Assembly: GCA_030407005.1 (NCBI GenBank)
Contig: JAUDYN010000005.1
Location: 3,782,001-3,846,000 of the forward strand
Direction of reading: 5' to 3'
Length of the DNA: 64,000 bases
DNA from: Desarmillaria ectypa
Taxonomy: Eukaryota > Basidiomycota > Agaricomycetes > Agaricales > Physalacriaceae
A program made the position numbers and the translations under genes. The first letter of the stretch is position 1. Each line of letters begins with the position of its first letter. Positions 27,276 through 49,309 of the stretch are shown here, piece after piece. The notes below the pieces were generated by a model that searched no databases, was not told the origin of the DNA, and saw only the letters and a program-made list of their open reading frames with translations.

Positions 27276-28537
27276 ATGGCTAACCTCCCTCAGACCTACA
27301 AAGCAAGTATGTAGTTCTGTTAGTTGTTCTTCATACTACTGCTAACAAATCTCTAGTTCAATGCCCTACACCTGGATCTCCTTGGGAAGTCGTAACTCGT
27401 TCCATCCGCGATCCTGGACCCAACGAAATTCTCGTCCGTGTGCACGCCTCTGGCGTCTGTAACTCTGATCATTTTATCAAAGACGGCACATGGCCTGGCG
27501 TTCAATACCCTCGGGTTCCAGGACATGAAGTTGTCGGACGGATCGCAGGAATCGGGTCAGATATCAAGGCAAAGGATGGTGAATCCGGGCGCTTCAAGCT
27601 CAACGCCTTGGTAGGCGTCGGCTGGAACGGCGGGTTCTGCAATCGCTGCGACAATTGTCGCCAGGGCGAGTTCTGGACATGTAAGCATGCCGCCTATACT
27701 GGATCCAGCCATGACGGTGGACACGCCGAATACGTGTATGCCCCGGAAACATGTTCGTCTCAACTTCTGCTTCGTTTTCTTTGATTGACAAGTGATCAGC
27801 CATAATCACCCTTCCAGAAGAGGCTCTCCAGACATTCTCATATGCTGAACTGGCGCCTCTCTTCTGTGCTGGAGCGACAGTATTCGACGCTATCAGAACC
27901 ACCAAATGGTGCCACGGCGACATTTGCGTTGTTCAAGGAATTGGTGGACTGGGACATCTCGCTGTACAAGTAGGTGTAATCTTTATGTCTCTCCTCACGA
28001 ATCTCATTCAATCATTTCAAAGTACGCGGCTAAGATGGGACTAAAGGTGCTTAGATTGCATTGATATGATTATACACTACTAACAAACACTAGGTCTACG
28101 CTGTATCATCGGGGTCTTCCAAACGCGACCTTGCCCTATCCATGGGCGCATACGATTACATCGATTCCAGCAGCACGAACGCCGTTGAGAAAATACAGTC
28201 TCTCGGTGGTGCGAAAGTTATCATCTGTACCGCTCCATATGCCGACCAGATCAGCGCCATCATCCCCGCTGTCGCTGTCAACGGCACTGTCACCCTCGTC
28301 TCAGCCGCAACGGACACAGAGGTCAAGGTGTGGAACTTGCATCTCAACATGACTCGCGCAACGATTCGTGGCTTTTCGTGCGGGGCTGCGCCGGATATGG
28401 AGAAGTGCGTCAACTTTTCGACAATCGCGAATGTTAAACCTATCGTGACGGAACATAAGCTGGAGGAGTTTACTGAGGCGTACGAGGGCGTGATGAAGAA
28501 TACGGCGAGGTTCCGGAATGTCATTGTCTTCCCTTAG
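27276..28537 (+). CDS. Zinc-dependent alcohol dehydrogenase (medium-chain)
   Basis: Interconverts alcohols and aldehydes with NAD(P)H. Exon 1 is tiny (from ATG 27276, MANLPQTYKA); four introns follow. Catalytic zinc ligands are in ASGVCNSDHF (Cys) and VPGHEVVGRI (His-Glu). Four structural-zinc cysteines are in FCNRCDNCRQGEFWTC. The Rossmann motif is GIGGLGHLAVQYAAKMGLKV. The protein ends NTARFRNVIVFP. About 340 residues, usual for the family, with no defects. It is closest in look to fungal cinnamyl-alcohol-dehydrogenase-like or ADH1-like enzymes. In this setting it could reduce the aryl aldehyde released by the A-T-R enzyme at 35.5-39.9 kb; that role is inference. It pairs head to head with the exporter. 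Confidence 0.9.
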
Positions 28538-32431: not shown

Positions 32432-34853
32432 ATGCAGAAGTACTTCATTTCCCCTCTCTTGATCCTATCAGTGCTTCTGAACACCGTCACCGGACGACTC
32501 TTACGAAACGTAAACGAAGCCCTGTCAGCTGAATACGATTTCATTATCGTCGGCGCGGGTACAGGTTAGGATTCACGATTAAATAGTTACGGCTTGGTTC
32601 TAACGCTCGTGCGCAGCTGGATGCGTTGTAGCCAATAGGCTCACAGAGTCCCCCAACAGCCGGGTACTTCTCATCGAGGCAGGCATCTCGTAAGTTGTCC
32701 GCCAAGTACAGCTTTCTTTGCTATCTCACGCAACTTACAGAGATGCCGGTCTAGCGGCAGATGTGCCCTACTATGGTCCGACTCTGACGCCCAACAAAGG
32801 CCCTTGGGATTGGAATTATACCGTCGTTCCCCAAGAGGCACTCAATAATCGAACGTTCCCTTACCCGCGAGGGAAAGTTCTTGGCGGTAGTAGTACCGTT
32901 AGTGAGTAATCAATTGCTATCCAAGCATATCGTATTTTGACCAAAGTCAGACTACCTGGTGTTCAATAGAGGTGGAATTGATGACTTCGACCGGATAGCA
33001 AATATATCGGGAGACCAAGGATGGTCTTGGGACGCTCTGGAACCTTACATGCGAAAGGCAAGATATTTCACCTATTCATTACTGATTGAACCTAAAATCT
33101 TGTGTGACAGCTCGAGCGATTGACACCACCTGCAGATGGGCACAACACCACTGGTCAATTCATCCCCGAGGCGCATGGATTTTACGGTCCACTTCTAACA
33201 AGTCTTCCCGGATACCCTATTCCCATAGACGATCTTATCCTGAACGCCACAACGCAGATTGACGGCTATCCATTTAACCAGGACATGAACAAAGGGGATG
33301 AAACCGGAATCGGTAAGGCTTCCGTGGTCGATACCCGTTTTCTTATCTCACAGATAGACAGGCTGGGTGTTTGGCTCTCTAGGCGGGGAGATACCGGAAA
33401 GAAGTAGTTCGGCAACAGCATACCTGACTCCTATCCTTAAAAGAGCCAATCTAGACGTTCTTATTGAGTATCAGGTCGGTTGTCAAGGCCCGCACTATAA
33501 TATTCTTCTAACTCTAGCATAGGTAACGAGATTGATTCAAACCGGTATTCAAGGAGGAGTTCCAGAGCTCAAAGGAGTTGAATTCTCGCAAGGTCCCGAC
33601 GGTATGTGCTGGAAAAGCGCAGCCCTGTATTCACGCTAACAGTCAATGTTCACAGAGCCCGTATTCAACCTTACGGCTAAGAATGAAATCATCCTGAGCG
33701 CAGGTTCCATTGGCACGCCTCAGATTCTGCTGCTCTCTGGAGTTGGAGATCAGGCTGAGCTCGAGGCCGTTGGAATAAAAACTATTGCTCAAGTTGCGGA
33801 TGTTGGTCGAAACCTTCAGGATCATGCCCTTCTCCCTAATCAGTTCTATGTGAACTCTGAAGATACTTGGGAGAAGGCCTCCCGAAATGCTTCTGTTGCT
33901 GCACAGCAATTGCAACAGTATACCGAGACTGGTCAAGGTAAACAATCTGGTACATTTTCTTCTTATATGCCCTACTGACTCTAATAAAGGTCCCCTTGTG
34001 AACACGATCTGCAATCATATTGGCTGGCTTCGCGTTCCGGCTAATTCTAGCATTTGGGAAAATGCCACAGATCCTTCTGCAGGTCCGACTGTTGGACACT
34101 ATGAGCTTGTTTTCTCCGTATGTATATCTCTTTCGTTCACCACTGAGCAGTGCTGATTGGCTCGTATAGAATGGCTTTGTGGGGCCAATCCAGTCACTCC
34201 CTGATACTGGCAACTTCATGACCGTCATCAGCAACCTGATCACCCCGGCATCTCGTACGTTCCGTCTAACCTTATCGCAGTCATCATGGCTTATCCCAAT
34301 CTCAATTCAGGTGGTTCTCTGAAGCTGAACACCAGCAGTCCATGGGACGCTCCACTCATTGATCCGGCATTGCTCCAGGAGAACATCGATCTACTTATCC
34401 TTCGTGAGGCGTACAAGAGCGCGCGCCAATTCATCTCCGCACCCGCTTTCGACGGATATATTTCTGGGCCATATGGAACTGCGGGGGCGAGTACAGACGA
34501 GGACATCGATGCATACATCCGCAACTTTACTACGACGGTCCGTCTATTCACTCCATCTATAATTAAGATGGACCACTGACAATGATATGCAGGTATGGCA
34601 TCCGGTTTCCACAGCAGCTATGAGCGCTTCTAATGACACCTCCGGTGTCGTTTCACCGGACTTGTTGGTAAAGAATGTGACTGGTGTCAGGGTAGTTGAT
34701 GCGTCCATCTTTGTGAGTACTACTCCGTTCATGTCTTCCTTTGATCTAACACGTGTGATATAGCCTTTCGTTCCTTCCGCGCATCCAGAAGCTCCCATCT
34801 ACATCATTGCCGAAAGGGCAAGTGACATAATCAGGACGGCTTGGGAGATCTAG
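32432..34853 (+). CDS. GMC oxidoreductase, aryl-alcohol-oxidase-like, secreted
   Basis: An FAD enzyme that oxidises alcohols to aldehydes while reducing oxygen to hydrogen peroxide. The start at 32432 gives a signal peptide (MQKYFISPLLILSVLLNTVTG). About ten short introns. The FAD-binding start is YDFIIVGAGTAGCVVANRL with LLIEAG. GMC signature 1 is YPRGKVLGGSSTVS; signature 2 is GSIGTPQILLLSGVGD. Further blocks are DVGRNLQDHALLP and SLKLNTSSPWDAPLIDP. The two active-site histidines are in VWHPVSTAAMS and PSAHPEAPIYIIAERASD. About 600 residues, complete, with many N-glycosylation sites, which fits secretion. It is convergent with the A-T-R gene. It might re-oxidise benzylic alcohols in the pathway, or serve lignin-related peroxide supply independently. 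Confidence 0.9.
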
Positions 34854-35477: not shown

Positions 35478-38400
35478 TTAAGCCAAAAACCCAGTCCTCC
35501 GCCAACATGAGATATATCTTTGCCAGAGCGAGCTATCCAGTGCCGGACACTGCCGAAGTGATTTTGAGGCGGCCAAAGTCTGAGGAAGGTCCAAAGTTGG
35601 CACGCCCCTTATATCCGAATCGTCCCGATCGTGGGCATTGACGAAGATATCCTGGATATATGCCTCCATCTTCATGCAAGGATTATCTTCGTCGGCACAG
35701 ATGGCGGTCCACCATTCTTGAGGAGACACGGGAACCACAGAAATTCCGCATGCCTGAAGATGATGGACCATATCTTTATAACTCGACGGGAAGGGATGGA
35801 CAACGTGATGTACGCGAACCACACCGGATTTCTGGGGTTGTAGGGCAAGTTCGACGGTGGTCGATGCGACAACGTCAACTGGGATCCAGTCGACGGCATC
35901 TGGAACGATAGGGAATTTTCCGATGCGTGCGCTACCCGCAATGATGGATGGGTTCATTTCCTGAGTCTTCCATGCACCGGACACTGTATCCCCCGTAATT
36001 TGTCCGACCCTAGCGACGGAGCAAGAAATCTCCAATAAGGAAGCGGCATTCTCGACCAAGTACTCGCATACGAATTTCGACTCGCTATATCCATGCGGGG
36101 AGGCAGGAATATGTGAATCTTTCCCCCACGGTAAGATAATCTCCGGCACCGGCTTCTGCTCCGACTCCAACACAGCGCCGATGCTGGAAATAAAGTAGAA
36201 CTCCTTCGGACGCATGAATCCAGCAAGAAGAAGGAGCTGAGTGGTACCTAGAATACAGATAAATTACGTGCTTATAATGCGAAAGATAGAAACCAACCAA
36301 TCAAGCAATCTTCAAAACCTTGAACAACTTGATTAAAGTCCATCTTCCATGCGGTATGGATGATTGTCGTTAGTCCCCTCGCCAAATCAAGGTACTCGTT
36401 TCTATCAAATTTAGGATTCGATAGGTCGAACGGGACTGCCACCACACGCTGGTTTAGCTGGATGGAAGGGACGTCGGGGTGCGCGACTTGATTGTCAAGC
36501 CAAAGATCGGTCTCGTTCGCTAGCTCTAGGAGCCCGGCTTTAGAGAAACCGATCTTGAGCTTCTTGTAGACAGCGGCAACATCTGATCCCCTGACCATAC
36601 AAACGACTTTGGTGACGTCTGGGCGCTCCAAAAGCATCTTCACTTGCCATATTCCGAGCGACCCAGCTGCTCCTACAACAGCGACTACCTGTCCATCACC
36701 CGGGTAGGACGTAGCTGGAGATCTGCTTGCAAGGATGAAGTTCGAAGAGAGGCCCAAAGCAAGGAGCTGACGTTCAAGCAGCTCATGCAGTACTTGGTTC
36801 TTATCGACAAAGTGAGCCGTAGGGGAGGGTAGACGTTCTGGGGTCGGTGCGACAAGAGTATACAGCGCAAGGGATAGTCGGGTGACCGAAAAGTTGTGAT
36901 ACACGAACTGTTGTGGGAGCTTTACACCAAATGCCTTCGCAAGTCTGTTGCGTAGAGCTAGTGCAGTCACTGAATCAAGTCCCAAATCGAATAGACTCTT
37001 GTCCAAATCGAGAGACTGATCTTTTTGATCAGTTAATTCTGCAAATATTTTCGAGACCTGATCCCGTAGTTCGGAGTGGGAAGTAACGAGAGTTGATGTA
37101 GAAGTTGTGCTATCGCCATCAAGGTCGTGGTAAAGTTTTTCGATCTCTTCGGAAAACATCTGATGATGGTGATGTGAATATGAATATGAATAGATCAATC
37201 AATAACGGAGAAACATACCTCCAGGACTTTGACCCGGATACAGTTACCTGCCGAGTACGATAAGATACAATCAGGATCACCAATGTTGGTACACGTACCT
37301 TTCGGAGTAACAGGGATCTGTTTATAGCCAAGGGGAAGGACTAAGAGCATATCTTCCATGACCCTCGAATGTGAAGGCGCTTCTAGGTTAGCTGCCTTGA
37401 TTACGCCGCGACATATCTCGTGAGACTCTTCTTCCGTATACTGCCGTGCCTCGACTTCATTGAGTTGGATGATGGCGGCACAAGCAGGGCGGCGGTGACC
37501 AACAATCGCAACACGACTGATAAGCTTATTCTCTCTGCAACGAAGCTCCATGGGGATAGGATTCGTCTTTTCGCCTATGAAAACGGTTATCATCAGTCTT
37601 TCGGAATATCGAGGTAACAGGCACCTACCGCTATCGTGAACCAAAATATCATCGTCTCTGTAAAGAATCCTGAAATTTCCGGGAGAGACCTCTTGAACTA
37701 TATCTCCCGTATTCCAAGTCTTTTCTCCAGGATTGAGCGCTCCTACAGCCAAACGGACGTCGTCCGCAGCCATATGAACCTGGTACAACTTGCGATGGTC
37801 CGAGGATTCGACGGGTTTTAACAACGGCGAAGTGTGGGGAAATGGTTGAAGAAGCTTCCACGACGCCCGGTTATCAGCCGTAAGACGTTCGTGAGATCCA
37901 ACCATCAAATGGCCCGTTTCACTGGAGCCATAAACGTACTTGAGGTTTACGCCGCGCGATACGAGGCGGTCAGCCAAACTATCTGGGCAGTGGGCGCCGC
38001 CAACTGTGAATGGATGTCAACTCTTCATAGTAGAGCTAGACTAAGCTCAACACACCTATCAGAACTCGAAGCTTAGCCAACAGATCGAAGGTATCTTGGC
38101 CGTTCGGATCGTCCTCTAGAGTACCAACTAGTTGATCCAAAAGTATCGGAACGAGGATGCACGTTGTGATATTCCCCGCACGAAGGGAGCGGATGACATC
38201 ACCTGGGGTAGGAGGCCATTGCTTGACCAGAGGAAATACAATGGTGGATCCGGAACAAATGGTGCTTGCGAGACCTAAGGTGAGTCCCATTGTATGGAAT
38301 CTAGGTTGTAGTCAGTACTCAAAACCAAAGTGGGGAAACAATATCATAAGTCCACTCACAATGGACCCAAACACAAGAAACGGTTGTTCGGACGTGCAAA

Positions 38401-39859
38401 GGCGGACCATTCACCGCTAGTGACCATGATTTGACCATTTGCCAAGAAGCTTGTATTTGACCAGCGGACTGAAATATAAGGTATGTTTAATCCAAGGGAA
38501 TGAACAAGGACGAGAAAATGTTTACCTGGCTTAGGATAAGCTGTTGAACCGGAGCTATGCACAATAATTGGTATTTCAGGAGGAGTAGGTAGGAAGGTAC
38601 GGTATTGGGAGGAGCCTGAAGAACCAAAAGGGGGGACAGCCATTAGCGGAAGAGCTGCAACAGCGCAGTCGGCTGCTGCCTCAACGGCCGATTTCATATG
38701 GTTTTGACCATACAAAAGGACAGAAACATCGCAGGAGCCCAAGAGATGTTTCACAGCAGCGAGAGAATTCTGTAAAAATTTGAGTGAACAAGACTTATTG
38801 ACCGAAAGAAAAAGAAACCCACGGCAGGAGCCAGAAGAAATACAGTGGCATGCAGCTTGGAAAGTGCGAGGACTGTGACAGCAAGATCAAAGCCACTATC
38901 TCCCAGTACAGCGATGACTGGATGGCTCTTGCTCGTCTTGACGACAGGCATGAAGCGCTCAGACCACAATGCCGCTTCGGCATCTACAAGATCATTGAAC
39001 TGACGATACGTGATCTCGGCATAGTGGTTTGGTGAAGGGGACGTTTGGTCAAACGGATCTGGATAGAGAGCAAAGACTCGTTGGCCAACAGTCGGGTCGG
39101 CGGCCTGTCTCTCGAGAATGGATATCAAGGTGGGGTTCGAGATGGGGGAAAATGGAGTAAACTGGAACAAGGAAGAGCTGGTACCTGATAGAGGCGATGG
39201 TTGAGCAGGAATTTTCGGGATAGGTTCGTCCAGCCACCCCTGTCCGCGAACGAACATGTCCCTGTCCGGAAATTCTTCCAAGATGTCGCAGACGATCCCT
39301 TCAATCTCGAGCCTGTAATTCCTGCGCAACTCTCGCCGAGCACCGATGACATTTGTCTCCGCGTCGATCAGGGTGAACTTTGGAGGACAACGAAGATGTC
39401 GAAATAACTGCCCAATAGCAAACTTTTGGTCTAGGAACAGACCTTCGCATTCGGGAGAGGTGATGGTGACGGAAGACGTTGCAACGCAAACCGTGCGTGA
39501 CGAGCATACGAGGTGAACTTGACGCTTCTGAGTGATAGGGTGTTCGGGAGAAGCTGGCTGTTCCCGAGGAGAAGTATGTGCGTAGATGCGCTCTATGGAT
39601 ATAGGTCTCCCAAAAAATGAGCTGTAGCAGTTGAATGAGTTCAACGTCTTGCAATTAGAAAACCCCGAAGATGATTTACCTTAAAACTCGCTGAAGGTCT
39701 CCTTGCGCTGCAAGAACTATACGTTCAAGCCCTGTTATATCCTCTGGGCATGACAGCTAAGGAGACATGGCGTCAGAGGGCTATTTCAGTATTTTGAAGT
39801 AGGACGACGCGTACCTCAACGCTGGTGGATGTACGGCTAAAGGTATCTTGGGAAGCCAT
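35478..39859 (-). CDS. Adenylate-forming reductase (A-T-R) with an N-terminal chorismate-lyase-like domain
   Basis: A-T-R enzymes activate a carboxylic acid with ATP, load it on a phosphopantetheine arm and reduce it with NADPH to the aldehyde. The start at 39859 gives MASQDTFSRTSTSVE; about ten introns; roughly 1,150 residues. Residues about 20-170 are an extra domain: GLERIVLAAQGDLQRVLSSF, KRQVHLVCSSRTVCVATSSV, FAIGQLFRHLRCPPKFTLID, RRELRRNYRLEIEG, ILEEFP. This pattern resembles chorismate lyase UbiC (including its Arg and Glu). One uninterrupted frame (38751-39644) joins it to the A domain. A domain: VHSSGSTAYPKP, YGSSETGHL, YRDDDILVHDSGEKTNPIPM, PVTPKG. T domain: FDLGLDSVTALALRNRL with the Ser. 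R domain: VVGAAGSLGIWQV, FYFISSIGAV, and GYSESKFV (catalytic Tyr and Lys). All motifs are intact. The substrate is probably an aryl acid; 4-hydroxybenzoate is inferred. Confidence 0.88.
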
Positions 39860-40994: not shown

Positions 40995-43542
40995 ATGGCC
41001 GTTCTTCCTGATCAACCCCAAGGTTATACCCAGCCTCTCGTCTCGTCGCAGTACGTGCTCCTTCCATCTTGATCAGTCCAGAACTGAACAAACCTTTTTT
41101 TCGTAGTGCGAACACTTCGCTTCCAAACGACTTTGGAGTGAATGCCATCCCAACCTACCCCGACCTCTTGAATGGAACGAACTGTGAAAATCCCGCAGTA
41201 CCCGACTTCAAACCTCCCTCCCAGGTTGATGTACTTGTAGTTGGTGGTATGTTCATGTTCTACGCTATAGTTCACGTATGGTCGCTCACTGTTACTTTCT
41301 TTAGCGGGCCCTGTCGGACTGACGACCGCCGCACTCTTGGCTCGTCAAGGAATAACCACTCGTATCCTGGACAAGTCGAAACATCCTCTGCCTGTTGGTA
41401 GGGCCGATGCCTTGCAGCCTCGGACGTTGGAGCTTTTCCAGCAGATGGGTCTCGTTGACGAGGTCACCCCTCTCGGTCCGTTGATGGGCCACACAGTAGT
41501 CTACAAGGACGGAAAGAAAGAGATATTCGCAGAGAGTCACCAGTCATCTCCCTATTCCTGTCGTTATCATGGTATGCCTGAGCTCTATCACTTGTATTTT
41601 TTGATGTTCTCATTCATGTGCTATAGGTTTACACACCGCTACTCAAACTGAAATCGAGCATGCACTCATAAGGTCAGTGCATCGCTTTTTCGCAGTAACT
41701 ATGATTTACTAACGGAAGTTTGACAGAGATCTTATTCGTCATGACATGCTCGTCGAGCGGCCTTGCACTGCAACGTCATACAAGTTCGATGAAGACGCCG
41801 ACGCTTCCGTTACACATCCCATAACGGTCAACGTGACGAACCATGCGACCGGTGCTCAAGAACTTGTTACTGCCCGGTACTTGGTCGGAAGTGACGGTGC
41901 ACACAGCATGATTCGTAAATCTCTGCCCATCAAATTCGACGGAATCAAGACTGATCTTCATTGGGGAATTGTTGATGCTGTCTTTGAGACCAACTGTAAG
42001 TGTTTATTATTTAAGTGATGTCCCCTATGCCTGATACCAAGTCTATAGTCCCTCATCGCTGGATATTTGGGTAAGGCTCTATCTTTTAGGTTCTAAAAGA
42101 TTCATTCTAAGATGCGCCCTCCAGAACGGTTCTAAGTACTGAGCATGGTGGTGTTCTTATCATCCCTCGTGAACGTGACATGGTTCGACTATATGCCCAG
42201 CTGAAGCCAGAACCAGGCCAGGCATTTGATCCCTCGAAGGTAAATATTCGCTTGATCCCCTGTTCGGTTTATTCTAACATTTACCAAGTGGGGCCCGAAT
42301 GAAGTTCTTGAGCAAATCAACAAAATATTTGCCCCCTACTATGTCAAGTATGCGAGCCCTGTGGATTGGGTAAGGAAATAGTTTGAATGTCTTGACATGT
42401 TCTCTAAACTTAATTTTTTTTAGTTCACTATCCTCACAAGTAGGCAATTCACAGCCCTGCATTGACATATCTAACCTTTTCCCTCACTGACAGTCAATGA
42501 GCGCGTCGCGAGCTCCTTCACTTACAAAGACAGGATTTTCCTTGCGGGAGATTCATGGTCAGTTGTTCTCGTGACCATAATCTTCTCTTGTTTAACACGC
42601 AAACGTATTTTTAGCCATGTACACAGTGCGAAGGGTGCCTTCGGATTGAATACTGGGGTTCTAGATGCCCAAAACCTTGCTTGGAAACTCGGTGCCCTTT
42701 GCAAAGGCATCGCCAAGCCAGCTCTACTTAGCTCGTACGACGTGGAACGACGAGAAAATGCCCTTAGAGCTGTGCGGACATCCGCTAGGTACCTCCGCTT
42801 TGTGGGCAATTGCACCTTCGAGAGTCTGGACGGCTTAGAGTCGCCGATGAATATCGAGGAGACAAAAGTCGTTCCTTCTCCCGGGGAAGATGAACACGTT
42901 GCTTTCTTCAAACAATTCGCTGCGGAGAACACAGCGTTCCTTATCGGGCTTGACATTCGTTACAGGACCAACGCGCTCAATAAAGCTGTAGAAGGCTCGA
43001 TTACCGGTATTCGTTGCGGTTACAGGTGGGTGATCACACACCTTCATATAAAAATGACAGGCTTACAGGCTGACAGGACACCTGATCCACGAGTCTCCCT
43101 ATCCAGAGCTGTATCTGGGAGATTGTATGACGCCTTTGGACGCATAGATCAGTTCAAACTCGTCATCTTCGCAAGCAACCTGGCCGGAGAAATCAAAGGT
43201 CGACTCCAGATGCTCGACTCCTACCTCGCCTCATCCAATTCCTTCTATCAAAAATTCGCCGACGTTGATCTGTTCAAGATCGTCGCCGTTGTCCGATCGA
43301 CGCCTTCCCAAGCAGAGGCTCGCATTCGGGAGTACCCATTCCTGGCAAAGAATGCCCAGGTGGTGCTCGACGACCAGCTCCCGCCTGGCATATTCGGAGC
43401 TGATGCTCATTCAATTTACGGAGTTGACCACAAACAGGGAGCCGTGGTCGTCGTTCGCCCAGATACCTTTGTTGGGACGGCGGTCGTGATTGCTAAAGTT
43501 TCGGATTTAGAATCGTACTTTACGCAATTTTTGTCGAGGTAG
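40995..43542 (+). CDS. FAD-dependent aromatic hydroxylase, phenol 2-monooxygenase family
   Basis: Class A flavin monooxygenase that hydroxylates phenolic rings with NADPH and oxygen. The start at 40995 gives MAVLPDQPQGYTQPL; about nine introns. FAD motifs: DVLVVGAGPVGLTTAALLAR (GxGxxG, assembled across an intron), LVGSDGAHSMIRK (DG motif), RIFLAGD then HVHSAKGAFGLNTG (GD motif). The C-terminal third (LYDAFGRIDQFKLVIFASNL to VVVVRPDTFVGTAVVI) is the thioredoxin-like domain found in phenol hydroxylases. About 610 residues, complete, no damage seen. It is divergent from the A-T-R enzyme. In the proposed pathway it would add a hydroxyl next to a phenol, or hydroxylate 4-hydroxybenzoate or its aldehyde; the exact ring position cannot be read from sequence. 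Confidence 0.9.
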
Positions 43543-44171: not shown

Positions 44172-45297
44172 ATGTCTGCTTCTCAATTTGTCTGGCTCAT
44201 CACTGGAACATCGTACGTTCAGTCATGAAACATCCTGCTGGTACTGACTCGAGTGTCGGTGTAGGACTGGCATCGGACGAGATCTCGCTCTTGCAGCCCT
44301 TGCGCGAGGAGAAAAGGTCATTGCAACGGCTCGAGCTCGATCTCTTCATCAGATAGTTGATCTTAAAGATCATGGAGCAGAGACGCTCGAGCTGGATGTC
44401 ACGGCACCGCTTGATGACTTGAAGAAGATTGCAGAAAAGGCTGTAGGAATCTATGGCAAGGTTGATGTGCTGGTGAACAATGCGGGATACATATTGGCCG
44501 GTGCATTGGAGGAAAGCACGTATGTGCCAGTTTTGTTTTTGCTCTTTCTTCCTCATTCATGATGTGAACGATATAGACCCGAAGAGACCTTCGAACAGTT
44601 CAAGTAAACATCATGCATTTCAACATAGCCCTTAGCTCATCACAATTTACAGCACGAACGTCTTTGGCGCTTTAAATGTGGCCCGTGCATTCCTACCATA
44701 TATGCGGGCCCGACGTACCGGCACCATTGTTTGGATGGGCTCTATTGGTGGCTGGCGGTGTGCCTGTTTACTCCCTCACCTTTGAATGTTACCCATAATG
44801 CAATGTCACAGCTCCGTACCGAACGCTGGACTCTACGGCACGACGAAATGGGCCCTTCGTGGAATTTCGGAAACTCTCAACGTCGAAGTCGCACCCTTGG
44901 GCCTCCGGAGTATCTGCATCGACCTTGGATACTTCCGCACGTCCTTCCTCACCGCAGACCATCGGAAACCGTACGTCTCCAGGATCGATGATTACCAGGA
45001 ACTCACGGGCAAAGTCGAGGCCGCGTTTCAGGGTAAGACCTGCTTCTTGGCATGCGGTCTATTAGTATTCTTATGAATTTATATTTAGCGTATAACGGAA
45101 ATCAGCCAGGAGATCCGAAGAAGGGCGTGCAGGTTATGCTGGATGTCGTACGTGGAGAGGGTGTTGCGCAAGGAAAAGAGTTTCCCAAGTCGCTGTTGCT
45201 CGGTTCAGACTGTTTCGGAGCCGTGCAGAAGCAGCTTGATGATTATCTGAAGCTCCAGTCCGAGTGGGAAACTGTTTCGAAGAGCACCGATTTCTAA
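44172..45297 (+). CDS. Short-chain dehydrogenase/reductase (SDR)
   Basis: NAD(P)H-dependent oxidoreductase of the classical SDR family. Exon 1 (ATG 44172, MSASQFVWLITGTS) joins across a gtacgt intron to TGIGRDLALAALARGEKVIATAR, completing the TGxxxGxG cofactor motif. VLVNNAGY is the NNAG motif. After three short introns, GTIVWMGSIGGW carries the serine, and AGLYGTTKWALRGISE gives catalytic YxxxK. The C-terminus (GSDCFGAVQKQLDDYLKLQSEW) is typical of fungal SDRs of secondary metabolism. About 280 residues, complete. It follows the FAD monooxygenase on the same strand and is the right-most intact enzyme of the putative cluster. It may reduce or oxidise a carbonyl or alcohol of the product. Confidence 0.88.
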
Positions 45298-45607: not shown

Positions 45608-47123
45608 CTAGACGAACCTAACAGTGCCGAGGTTTTTCTCCTCCACTTGGAGGGTCGTCTATGGAAAGTACAAGTCAGTATGCGACGAAGAGGCCATGAA
45701 GTGTACAGCTCCTACGCCACTGCCGCAAGCACCATATCCGTACGCATTGCAAGGACTCACCTCTTCACCCGCGAGCTTGACACCCCTCTTTTTGTTCGCC
45801 CTCCACTTGAAAGACAAGCCAAGTGCAAACAAGGCAAACACGAACACGCCAAGAGCCCAGAGGGCATTGACGTTCAAGTTTTCGGTGGAAAAGACGGAGG
45901 CAGAAGCGGACTTGCCAGTGCAAACATCCCTCCATTGACGGTTGTTCGAGATGATAGAGTCCTGACTCTTGTAGATGAACTCGGTGAGCGGAATATCTCC
46001 CCTGTGGCCGAAGACGTGCACGGTCTGGGTAGGATGCGAGCCGTTGGTGAACTTGAAGCGGAGGAAGTCGCGTGTGTCGGGGGGAGCCCCGCGGATGAGC
46101 TCGATCATCAAGCCAGAGGCGGGGTCCGCTGTGAAATGACTTGGTTAATAAGCAATGGTTCGAACGTTCGAGGAAACTCACGAATGGCCTTCAGTTCTGG
46201 GTACGTGTCGACGATGTCGGTTGCGTGGAAGAAGGAGAGGAAGGGGTGGTAGGAGGATTCGATAAGGAGGAACTGCAACGGGTCACCGTCAAAGGCGATG
46301 CGCTCAAGGGAAGTAATGATGGTATGCAAAAGAGTGCGAGCAGCGATGTTGCCAATACCGTTCATGTCGTCGTCGGAGAACACTGCATCTTCGTGGAAGT
46401 TGGCAAGATCACGGGCGGTGTGAATGAGTGTCGGGGGGAGCCGGTAGGCGTACGTTTGGTTGTACGTGAGTTGGGTCTGCATGAAATCATAGATGTTCCA
46501 CTGACCGGTTGCGTTAGTGTATGTAGGATATGCGGAAGACTGGTAGGACTTACGATATTCGTCAAACTTCGCTCGCGACCAAAAACGTAGTCCTTGACCG
46601 TGTTAAAGAATCTTACGGTCGCAGCATCCTTCTCCTTGGCTTTGAACTTGTCGGAGGCGTATACCTGCGCAACGTGCTTGAGGAACGCGGGGCAGGACGT
46701 CCAAGGCTCGAGAGACCTGTCGTTTCCAGGCTCTACAGTTTCGACGGGAACATATTGGTATCCTCCAAGAGGTGCCGTGACGACGGTCTCGTTAGCGAGA
46801 ACGATGGAATTGCGCGGGGTGGGTGGGAAGAGGCCTTGAAGGAGCGCAATGGTAGAGTCGAAGACTGGATCGCCTTCTCCACCGGCTTTGGCGCGAACTT
46901 TGACCTGTTTGGGGTCCGCAAGGTCGGGGTTAAGTCCAGTGATGTAAGATGGGGACGACGGGTTGAGATAGGTTGACCTGAGATAGGAACCGAGCTGGTG
47001 GGACTGGACAGCGCCTAGAGGGGTGAGGTGCGTCGAGGAGGATAAATATGTGGCTGGGTCTTGGACGTAACCAAGCCTGTCGCCGTTACGGGCAAGAACA
47101 ATGACTCCGAGGACGTTAGGCAT
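45608..47123 (-). CDS. Histidine-acid-phosphatase-like membrane protein with altered RHG motif
   Basis: Member of the histidine phosphatase (phosphoglycerate mutase-like) superfamily, start at 47123. The N-terminus reads MPNVLGVIVLARNGDRLGY, where the catalytic family motif RHGxR appears as RNGDR, so the His nucleophile is Asn. Further blocks: HLTPLGAVQSHQLGSYLRST, IALLQGLFPPTPRNS, HPFLSFFHATDIVDTYPELK, HVFGHRGDIPLTEFI. A C-terminal membrane helix (ALWALGVFVFALFALGLSFKW) is followed by a basic anchor. There is no clear signal peptide. The last exon is uncertain: the best join ends EETTLQVEEKNLGTVRFV at 45608; an unspliced alternative stops at 45659. Two earlier introns. It may be an inactive relative or use another nucleophile. 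A link to the cluster is not evident. Confidence 0.78.
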
Positions 47124-49309
47124 TTTGGACACGAGCTTTTGCTGGGAACACGAGGATTTCCGAGGGTTGGAATGCTGTCTGGAGGATAAAGAGGCCACCT
47201 TTATAAGATGAGCGCTATGGCGTGGACTTGGCGTTTGACGATTGCACAAAACACTGCCACACGCGCAATACAGGGGCGTGTACTCCTTGCGTCGTTCATT
47301 GCAATGCCCGTTTCTCATGTCACGTCGTATGCTTTACTCTATACAACGTGCCTGATGACTATCGACACGCTCGTTGATGGCTCGTGCACGCATCTCTTCG
47401 TTATAGGAATTCTCTTTTTCTTCAAATGCAGCAACGAAGGCGAGAGCCGAGTTGTTAGCTGCAAACGGTCATGAAGTAGGCGTGTACACCACCCGCCGAT
47501 TACCTTTCTCTCCTGTCACATTGACCTCATTTTGGAAGCTCAAACGCCACTAGAAGCCGCGTGTTCAAAATGCAGTTTTGCTTGGGGACCCGCTAAGTTC
47601 AAGTCTTGGACAATGACCTGGGATGATTCTTTACAAAGTCAATGAAAGGTGAAGAGACATAGGCCATGATTTTGCTTCTAGGGCGCGACATAAATCGAGA
47701 ATTAGTGGCATTCTCATCCTCGCGTTGGCCACGATGCCTGGTTTGAAATGATGTATGGAAGCCAACGACAAGCCGGTGACAATATACGTAAGTACGTACT
47801 GCACTAGCCTCGTCGTCTCGACCAAGTTGACGACATTTCCTTAGATGCTAATATTTCAAGTGTGGCTTACAAGCCGCATTGGCGCAGCACTCTTTGCATA
47901 AAAACGACGCCAAAACCAAGTTTCCATTGTCGAACGCGGACTCTTTGAACGAGATTTTAGTCTGTTGTAACTTACGACGCGCGGTGTGCAACGCATTCGT
48001 ACATTATGGCGCAAAATCTGCACTCACCAGGTCACCCCGTTCAGATTCGGATTTTAGACATATGCATCGGGCTTCTCACCGCCGTATGCGTTTCTGTCTA
48101 GGCCTTCTGGACTTCTATCAATTTCTATGAACATCAAAATGGACCTTATTATGTACCTTTGGAAGCAGACAATGCTGAATCTCCTCCCGTAACTGTGACA
48201 CTGGCCTTAAAACTATCTGCTGATGACAATGAATAAAGCAACTCTCAGGACGTCTTTTTGAGGCGTATATGCAGTGGAAAACCGCCTTAAACGATACGTG
48301 CAAACGGTCGTCATTCGAAATTTCGTGACCCCACTAATGCCCGAGGAAATCCGTAAATTATGGTCGATTTAATCTCTAGGGTATGTCTTCTTGAGTTCTC
48401 TCGGGCTAAACCGAGGAATGAATCATAACGAAGGTTATCGAGTAATACGGAATCCATCGATGAGGTTCTCAGGAAGACAATTTACTGTCTGGACTCAGGT
48501 CGTCCTAGACGATACCTTTAGCCGGTCCAAGATGAAGATTGCATGCACAAGCTCAAATGACCTTACTGATGGGCATATAGACCTTAGAGACCACGAGTTT
48601 CGCATAATCCGCACTCGATACCTTTTTGACTTATTAGTATCTTTGCGTACTTAGGAGAATCCCGAGACGGTACTAGGAAATGGACTAGAGGCCCTGCTTC
48701 ATACACTCAATCTAGTCTCAATTCCGTCGCCAGCAGCGGATGCAGGTCATTAAATGAGGTACGACGCATCTACGTCTCCGTTCTTGACGGCGAGCATACT
48801 TTCGATCATGGTCTGTGCAGCTCTGTGAGGTCTTCGTTCAAGTAACATTTATTGAAGTTTGGGAATATTGACGTTCACATCTCGAACCTACATAAATCAC
48901 TGATGGACAGACATCTGGACCTCGTTTTATGCCTTTGATTTAAACTCTGGACCAGTGGTCGTATATGCTGTTCGCTTTTCCAAGTTCCGCGTCTACCGGC
49001 TTGTGGTCTCGACAGGCAGTTGAGGAATAACAAGCAACTAATCGACTACAGAATGTCGCGGCACGCAGATATTTTCCTGCAGACTGGTACAAACCTTTGC
49101 GGTCGCTTGTGTTTACCGATACGGTGGTGGGATTTTACAGGTCTCCCAGATGAGTCAAGCCACAATCCTCCAAGGCCACTGCCAGTGTGTGCCGGCCCAC
49201 TATAGTTTGATGAAACGTCACGATGATTATATTCATGACAATTTGTGTTCGGAATCGTGTTGATTGTTAGTGTAGGTACTCAATAATACAAGATAATGGT
49301 ATAAATTAC
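47124..49309. other. Gene-poor region, 2.2 kb
   Basis: Upstream of the phosphatase-like gene. Only short frames (for example 48391-48654 plus) without motifs or credible splicing are present. No repeat or RNA gene recognised. Probably spacer with decayed sequence. Confidence 0.45.

Follow-up and report, generated by a model that had tools for sequence, protein, structure and literature searches.

The window analysed here, 64,000 nucleotides of contig JAUDYN010000005.1 in the 40.6-Mb assembly of the mushroom Desarmillaria ectypa (Physalacriaceae), contains a gene in which a chorismate-lyase-like domain is fused to a carboxylic acid reductase (CAR) with adenylation, carrier and reductase (A-T-R) domains. 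A first-pass annotation of this DNA had proposed such a fusion; we find it to be conserved and internal to an exon, which confirms that observation in a stronger form than was claimed. The gene has the following features (ORF, open reading frame):

35478..39859, minus strand: fused gene, chorismate-lyase-like domain plus A-T-R carboxylic acid reductase (1276 residues, 11 exons, splice model)
Exons 1-6: 39859-39815, 39756-39680, 39621-38823, 38769-38526, 38468-38360, 38300-38056
Exons 7-11: 38003-37629, 37574-37299, 37247-37219, 37159-36298, 36247-35478
38823..39621, minus strand: exon 3, a single frame that covers most of the lyase-like domain and runs through the linker into the A domain
39210..39859, minus strand: chorismate-lyase-like domain, residues 1-178, two introns (from standalone relatives and fold comparison)
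39522..39524, minus strand: Arg74, putative counterpart of UbiC mature Arg76 (ORF Arg77), from alignment
39276..39278, minus strand: Glu156, putative counterpart of UbiC mature Glu155 (ORF Glu156), from alignment
37124..39122, minus strand: adenylation (A) domain, about residues 208-745, introns inside, start approximate (Pfam AMP-binding 240-546, AMP-binding_C_3 624-745)
36887..37060, minus strand: carrier (T) domain, residues 767-824, GLDS serine at residue 796 (Pfam)
35859..36676, minus strand: reductase (R) domain, residues 895-1150, one intron, GAAGSLG and YSESK motifs (Pfam)

The gene starts with the ATG at 39859 and is interrupted by ten introns of 50-59 nt, all GT-AG, with the model in frame throughout. 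This splice model was made independently, before the NCBI record was seen, and its protein is letter for letter the NCBI protein of D. ectypa (P0094); the splicing is predicted from the genomic sequence, not read from transcripts, and agrees with this database protein. Residues 1-41 of the extra domain come from two short exons (39859-39815 and 39756-39680). Exon 3 spans 266 codons; among 20,000 sequences simulated at its composition with a first-order model, 4 showed no stop over that length, and the other two frames of the exon contain 6 and 5 stops. The first-pass annotation had placed the lyase-like domain and the start of the A domain in the single ORF 38751-39644 on the minus strand. That frame is present and does hold most of the former together with the start of the latter, with the coding exon 39621-38823 inside it; its limits do not stand, with an intron at both ends and a TTG that is not the start of the gene.

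The same fusion occurs in five more fungi, Armillaria mellea, Infundibulicybe gibba, Pleurotus djamor, Hohenbuehelia grisea and Coniophora puteana, in gene models annotated by others. A search for the domain within whole proteins returned, besides P0094, those of A. mellea (92%) and I. gibba (62%), together 3 of 215 candidates, and the remaining three fusions were recognised by reading N-termini. When the best 7,992 candidates of a search with the A-T-R part were scored, 12 proteins reached E<=1e-100: six fusions, three fungal proteins that lack the domain (Gymnopus, Collybiopsis, Rhodocollybia), one fragment (Cyathus) and two rotifer proteins at 30% identity. The lyase-like domain of D. ectypa is 92% identical to that of A. 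mellea, and the reductase 87%. The linkers differ in length and sequence among species, an argument against a copied annotation error. The first-pass annotation did not know the fusion as a described enzyme, and no description of it was found in the open-access full-text literature searched. The H. grisea fusion is HGRIS_011296, a name absent from the main text of a study of pleurotin in that fungus (PMC11574748), and the main text of a survey of 84 fungal CARs, which gives A-T-R as their typical architecture, does not contain the words "chorismate", "N-terminal" or "additional domain" (PMC9605436).

The N-terminal (N) domain also exists on its own. A search with the domain alone, under length limits that admit small proteins only, gave 93 matches of 144-298 residues, whose named hosts are mostly Agaricomycetes, with seven from Coemansia, Dipsacomyces and Martensiomyces; one is named chorismate-pyruvate lyase at its source, one UbiC-associated, and most are hypothetical or unnamed. 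A second, standalone lyase-like gene lies in the D. ectypa genome itself (C30:2774618-2775270, 48% identity), where it adjoins a SIR2-like gene, as read by eye, and where a reductase was not noticed; it is possibly a general source of 4-hydroxybenzoate. Three alignments of the family were used. A1 holds 51 of the 93 standalone matches with the three fusions then known, A3 the window piece with 74 of the 93, and A2 84 of the 93, omitting P0021, P0033, P0063, P0065, P0067, P0068, P0083, P0084 and P0085, one of which is marked partial while the rest have 55-81% query coverage.

All motifs named in the first-pass annotation are present in the N domain: KRQVHL at 73-78, AIGQLFRHL at 109-117, RRNYRLEIEG at 140-149 and ILEEFP at 154-159. 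Arg74 and Glu156 appear in the proposed order, matching in a MAFFT alignment the mature Arg76 and Glu155 of Escherichia coli UbiC, its substrate Arg and active-site Glu; they also align with a PF01947 protein by hhalign, and neither residue varies among the 84 standalone relatives examined or the six fusions. This correspondence is one of aligned sequences, not of residue pairs in structural alignments. The predicted structure of the N domain matches the chorismate-lyase/UTRA fold, and by both fold and profile its nearest match is the DUF98/Rv2949c-like branch. With PF01947 represented by a single archaeal protein (Halorussus P0106), hhalign aligned the fungal family over 135 columns (probability 95.5, E 1.6e-8). 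The DUF98 (PF01947) chorismate pyruvate-lyases AF1396 (2nwi) and P0106 have the same fold as the fungal domain, and the two families share a start of the form ER-(I/L)-x-L-x-x-x-G-x-x-x-R-L-L, an R-x-V-x-L strand, an IG(Q/K)LFR box and, near the end, R-x-Y and I-(T/L)-E-x-F. The fungal family differs in falling below the Pfam cut-off, and its window copy in being covalently joined to a reductase. With E values up to 10 allowed, 32 of the 84 standalone relatives match PF01947, the best of them at E 0.0012; the best fungal score shown is 18.6 bits against a gathering score of 22 bits, and P0094 itself gave no match; because the score lies under this cut-off, we label the N domain a distant relative of PF01947 and not a member. 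On a Halorussus plasmid (L017:1980-4348), an FAD-dependent monooxygenase gene and a prenyltransferase gene annotated as menA adjoin the archaeal PF01947 gene.

The label "UbiC-like" holds for the chorismate-lyase fold, which the domain shares with UbiC together with the order of the aligned Arg/Glu pair, and fails for the UbiC family. UbiC is a single-domain protein that feeds ubiquinone synthesis. By hhalign, the fungal family shows no detectable profile similarity to it (probability 0.8), and the PF04345 (UbiC) hidden Markov model has no match anywhere in the D. ectypa genome; these two results rule out a plain UbiC identity. Searching PDB sequences with the family profile brought up no relative, 3gms alone (E 1.4) being taken as a chance match. 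Contig scans confirmed 0 of 18 stretches for the fungal alignment, used as one peptide pattern, and 0 of 91 for kin of the archaeal PF01947 protein.

The A-T-R part of the fused protein is intact. In P0094, AMP-binding scores 108.9 bits, AMP-binding_C_3 101.9, PP-binding 46.7 and NAD_binding_4 96.2, all far over the Pfam cut-offs, and both the carrier motif LGLDS (792-796), with the carrier serine, and the reductase motif YSESK (1074-1078), with the Tyr and Lys of the reductase, are present. The GLDS letters recur in all six fusions; P0099 has a variant PKGN motif. The reductase clade is distinct, its relatives beyond the fungal set being found at 30% identity, and the fused gene is its sole close match in the genome, where other places reach at most 33%. 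The window protein shares its A-T-R architecture with fungal carboxylic acid reductases and adenylate-forming reductases such as BvCAR, PnlA and LnaA, and differs from them by its additional N-terminal domain.

The neighbouring genes provide a metabolic context:

40995..43542, plus strand: VibO-like flavin monooxygenase, divergent from the fused gene, 653 residues, 12 exons (splice model; 65% identity to VibO 7YJ0)
32432..34853, plus strand: aryl-alcohol-oxidase-like GMC oxidoreductase on the other side of the fused gene (5oc1 E 1.4e-169; exon joins by eye, approximate)
27276..28537, plus strand: zinc-type alcohol dehydrogenase, candidate aldehyde reductase (ADH_N 6.9e-22; limits by eye)
44172..45297, plus strand: short-chain dehydrogenase/reductase-like gene beyond the VibO relative, candidate aldehyde reductase (frames by eye only)

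A phenol-hydroxylase-like flavin enzyme beside a reductase might point to a vibralactone-like pathway, and the neighbour was compared with VibO. Over 644 aligned columns 419 are identical (970 bits, the next PDB match scoring 258 bits), and a gap of 1135 nt separates the two genes; the final intron of the gene model (43019-43060) is conjectural, with an unusual donor site. The gene is the sole close match to VibO found in the genome, others showing 33-47% identity over parts. VibO is the oxepinone-forming monooxygenase of vibralactone biosynthesis, and the seven residues for which the main text gives mutational data (R97, D99, F265, I279, R287, Y289 and A366; PMC10257657) are all kept in the neighbour. 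An MFS transporter gene lies, with the alcohol dehydrogenase, beyond the aryl-alcohol-oxidase-like gene. No UbiA prenyltransferase match was found within the window; UbiA matches lie elsewhere in the genome, on contigs C2, C6, C27, C28 and C32. Downstream of the cluster, a frame at 46362-47333 on the minus strand matches branch 2 of the histidine phosphatase superfamily (E 1.4e-5).

What could the fused protein do beside a VibO relative? In Boreostereum vibrans, according to the main text of PMC10257657, 4-hydroxybenzoate is prenylated by a UbiA enzyme, reduced by BvCAR to the aldehyde and then to the alcohol, and passed to VibO. That account starts at 4-hydroxybenzoate, and its main text does not contain the word "chorismate"; elsewhere, the ring of fungal compounds like vibralactone and antroquinonol is said to come from 4-hydroxybenzoate made from chorismate or phenylalanine (main text of PMC11574748). 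An acid reductase acts there as here, and whereas the B. vibrans genes are thought unlikely to cluster (PMC10257657), in the window the lyase-reductase fusion adjoins the VibO relative. We propose that the fused protein is probably a two-part enzyme, a DUF98-branch chorismate pyruvate-lyase joined to an A-T-R reductase, and that with the divergent VibO-like monooxygenase and the alcohol/aldehyde redox enzymes nearby it makes up an early part of a vibralactone-type (oxepinone) pathway. What the analysis shows is the structure of the gene, the conserved fusion, the predicted fold, the conserved Arg/Glu pair, the intact A-T-R domains and the VibO-like neighbour; the chorismate-lyase activity, the substrate of the A domain and the product of the pathway are inferred. 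The N domain would cleave chorismate to 4-hydroxybenzoate and pyruvate. A 4-hydroxybenzoate-type acid, either free or prenylated elsewhere, would, as the domains suggest, be adenylated with ATP and loaded on the carrier arm, from which the R domain would release it as the aldehyde with NAD(P)H. An alcohol dehydrogenase might reduce this aldehyde to the alcohol, and the VibO relative, judged by its identity to VibO, may expand or hydroxylate the ring.

The order of these reactions is less certain. BvCAR does not accept free 4-hydroxybenzoate, while the prenyltransferases VibP1 and VibP2, which favour 4-hydroxybenzoate, also prenylate 4-hydroxybenzaldehyde and 4-hydroxybenzyl alcohol to a lesser extent (main text of PMC10257657), and for these reasons we consider both orders. 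That an unlinked UbiA enzyme attaches the 3-prenyl group to 4-hydroxybenzoate before reduction is about evenly poised in our judgement, and slightly likelier than direct reduction. In the direct route, which is a serious contender even if we do not quite favour it, the polypeptide alone would convert chorismate to 4-hydroxybenzaldehyde by handing 4-hydroxybenzoate from the lyase to the A domain, and any prenylation would follow on the aldehyde or alcohol. The retention of a covalent fusion in six species and the wider substrate range of VibP1 and VibP2 speak for it; the substrate range of BvCAR, a VibO-pathway reductase likened to ours by described activity and not by sequence, speaks against it. 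The first-pass interpretation of the fusion is partly supported. More tentative is a broader picture, in which mushrooms possess a dedicated chorismate lyase that several lineages have joined to a reductase, making 4-hydroxybenzaldehyde from chorismate and, beside a VibO-type monooxygenase, a compact clustered oxepinone pathway.

Alternatively, the N domain might be a non-catalytic, UTRA-like ligand-binding or allosteric domain that controls the reductase in response to chorismate or 4-hydroxybenzoate. UTRA sensors do have the same fold at similar Z, but the closest fold and profile matches lie in the DUF98/Rv2949c-like branch, Arg and Glu are unchanged across 84 relatives, and neither the 84 standalone members nor the fused protein gave a match to a GntR DNA-binding domain, which makes a sensor unlikely. 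Similarly improbable is an inactive or repurposed lyase that binds and helps to deliver an aromatic acid, or cleaves another enol-pyruvyl compound. An Arg/Glu pair alone indicates only binding chemistry, and experimental work on the fungal family was not found in the open-access literature searched; however, between D. ectypa and A. mellea the domain is at least as conserved as the reductase. That annotation wrongly joined two adjacent genes is scarcely credible, although the halves occur as separate proteins in other mushrooms, and exon 3, stop-free across both halves, together with the same join annotated in five further species with different linkers, contradicts such an artefact.

This fungal chorismate-lyase-like family, tied by fusion and neighbourhood to a reductase and a VibO relative, is a candidate for the first step that forms 4-hydroxybenzoate, and the locus suggests where such fungi may obtain this building block. 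With the standalone form present in many Agaricomycetes, confirmation would have implications past this locus, and we may speculate that it is also a source of the coenzyme Q ring in these fungi. A natural lyase-reductase fusion might interest producers of aromatic aldehydes, and a compact clustered oxepinone pathway, if true, would mean that its products are still to be found in this honey-mushroom relative.

How did the fusion arise? In a lyase tree of 30 rows (24 of the 93 standalone proteins and the six fusions), whose backbone is poorly resolved and which contains long rows, the fusions do not form one clade (approximately unbiased test, AU p 0.031 against a single clade), and the same is seen in a quick tree of 52 rows (46 of the 93 and the six fusions) with a weak backbone. 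The well-supported branches of a 12-row reductase tree demand at least two changes, and unfused Omphalotaceae stand next to fused lineages in it. The halves may have joined once and later split in some lineages, or may have joined several times; the lyase tree weakly rejects a single clade. In Rhodocollybia butyracea the halves are unfused, as a standalone lyase-like protein (P0073) and a reductase (P0102), and their genes are probably linked on one contig, because both are recorded with an identical contig of 130,160 bases. Macrolepiota fuliginosa has two lyase-like proteins (P0077 and P0078), both recorded with a 66,261-base contig, which suggests linked copies.
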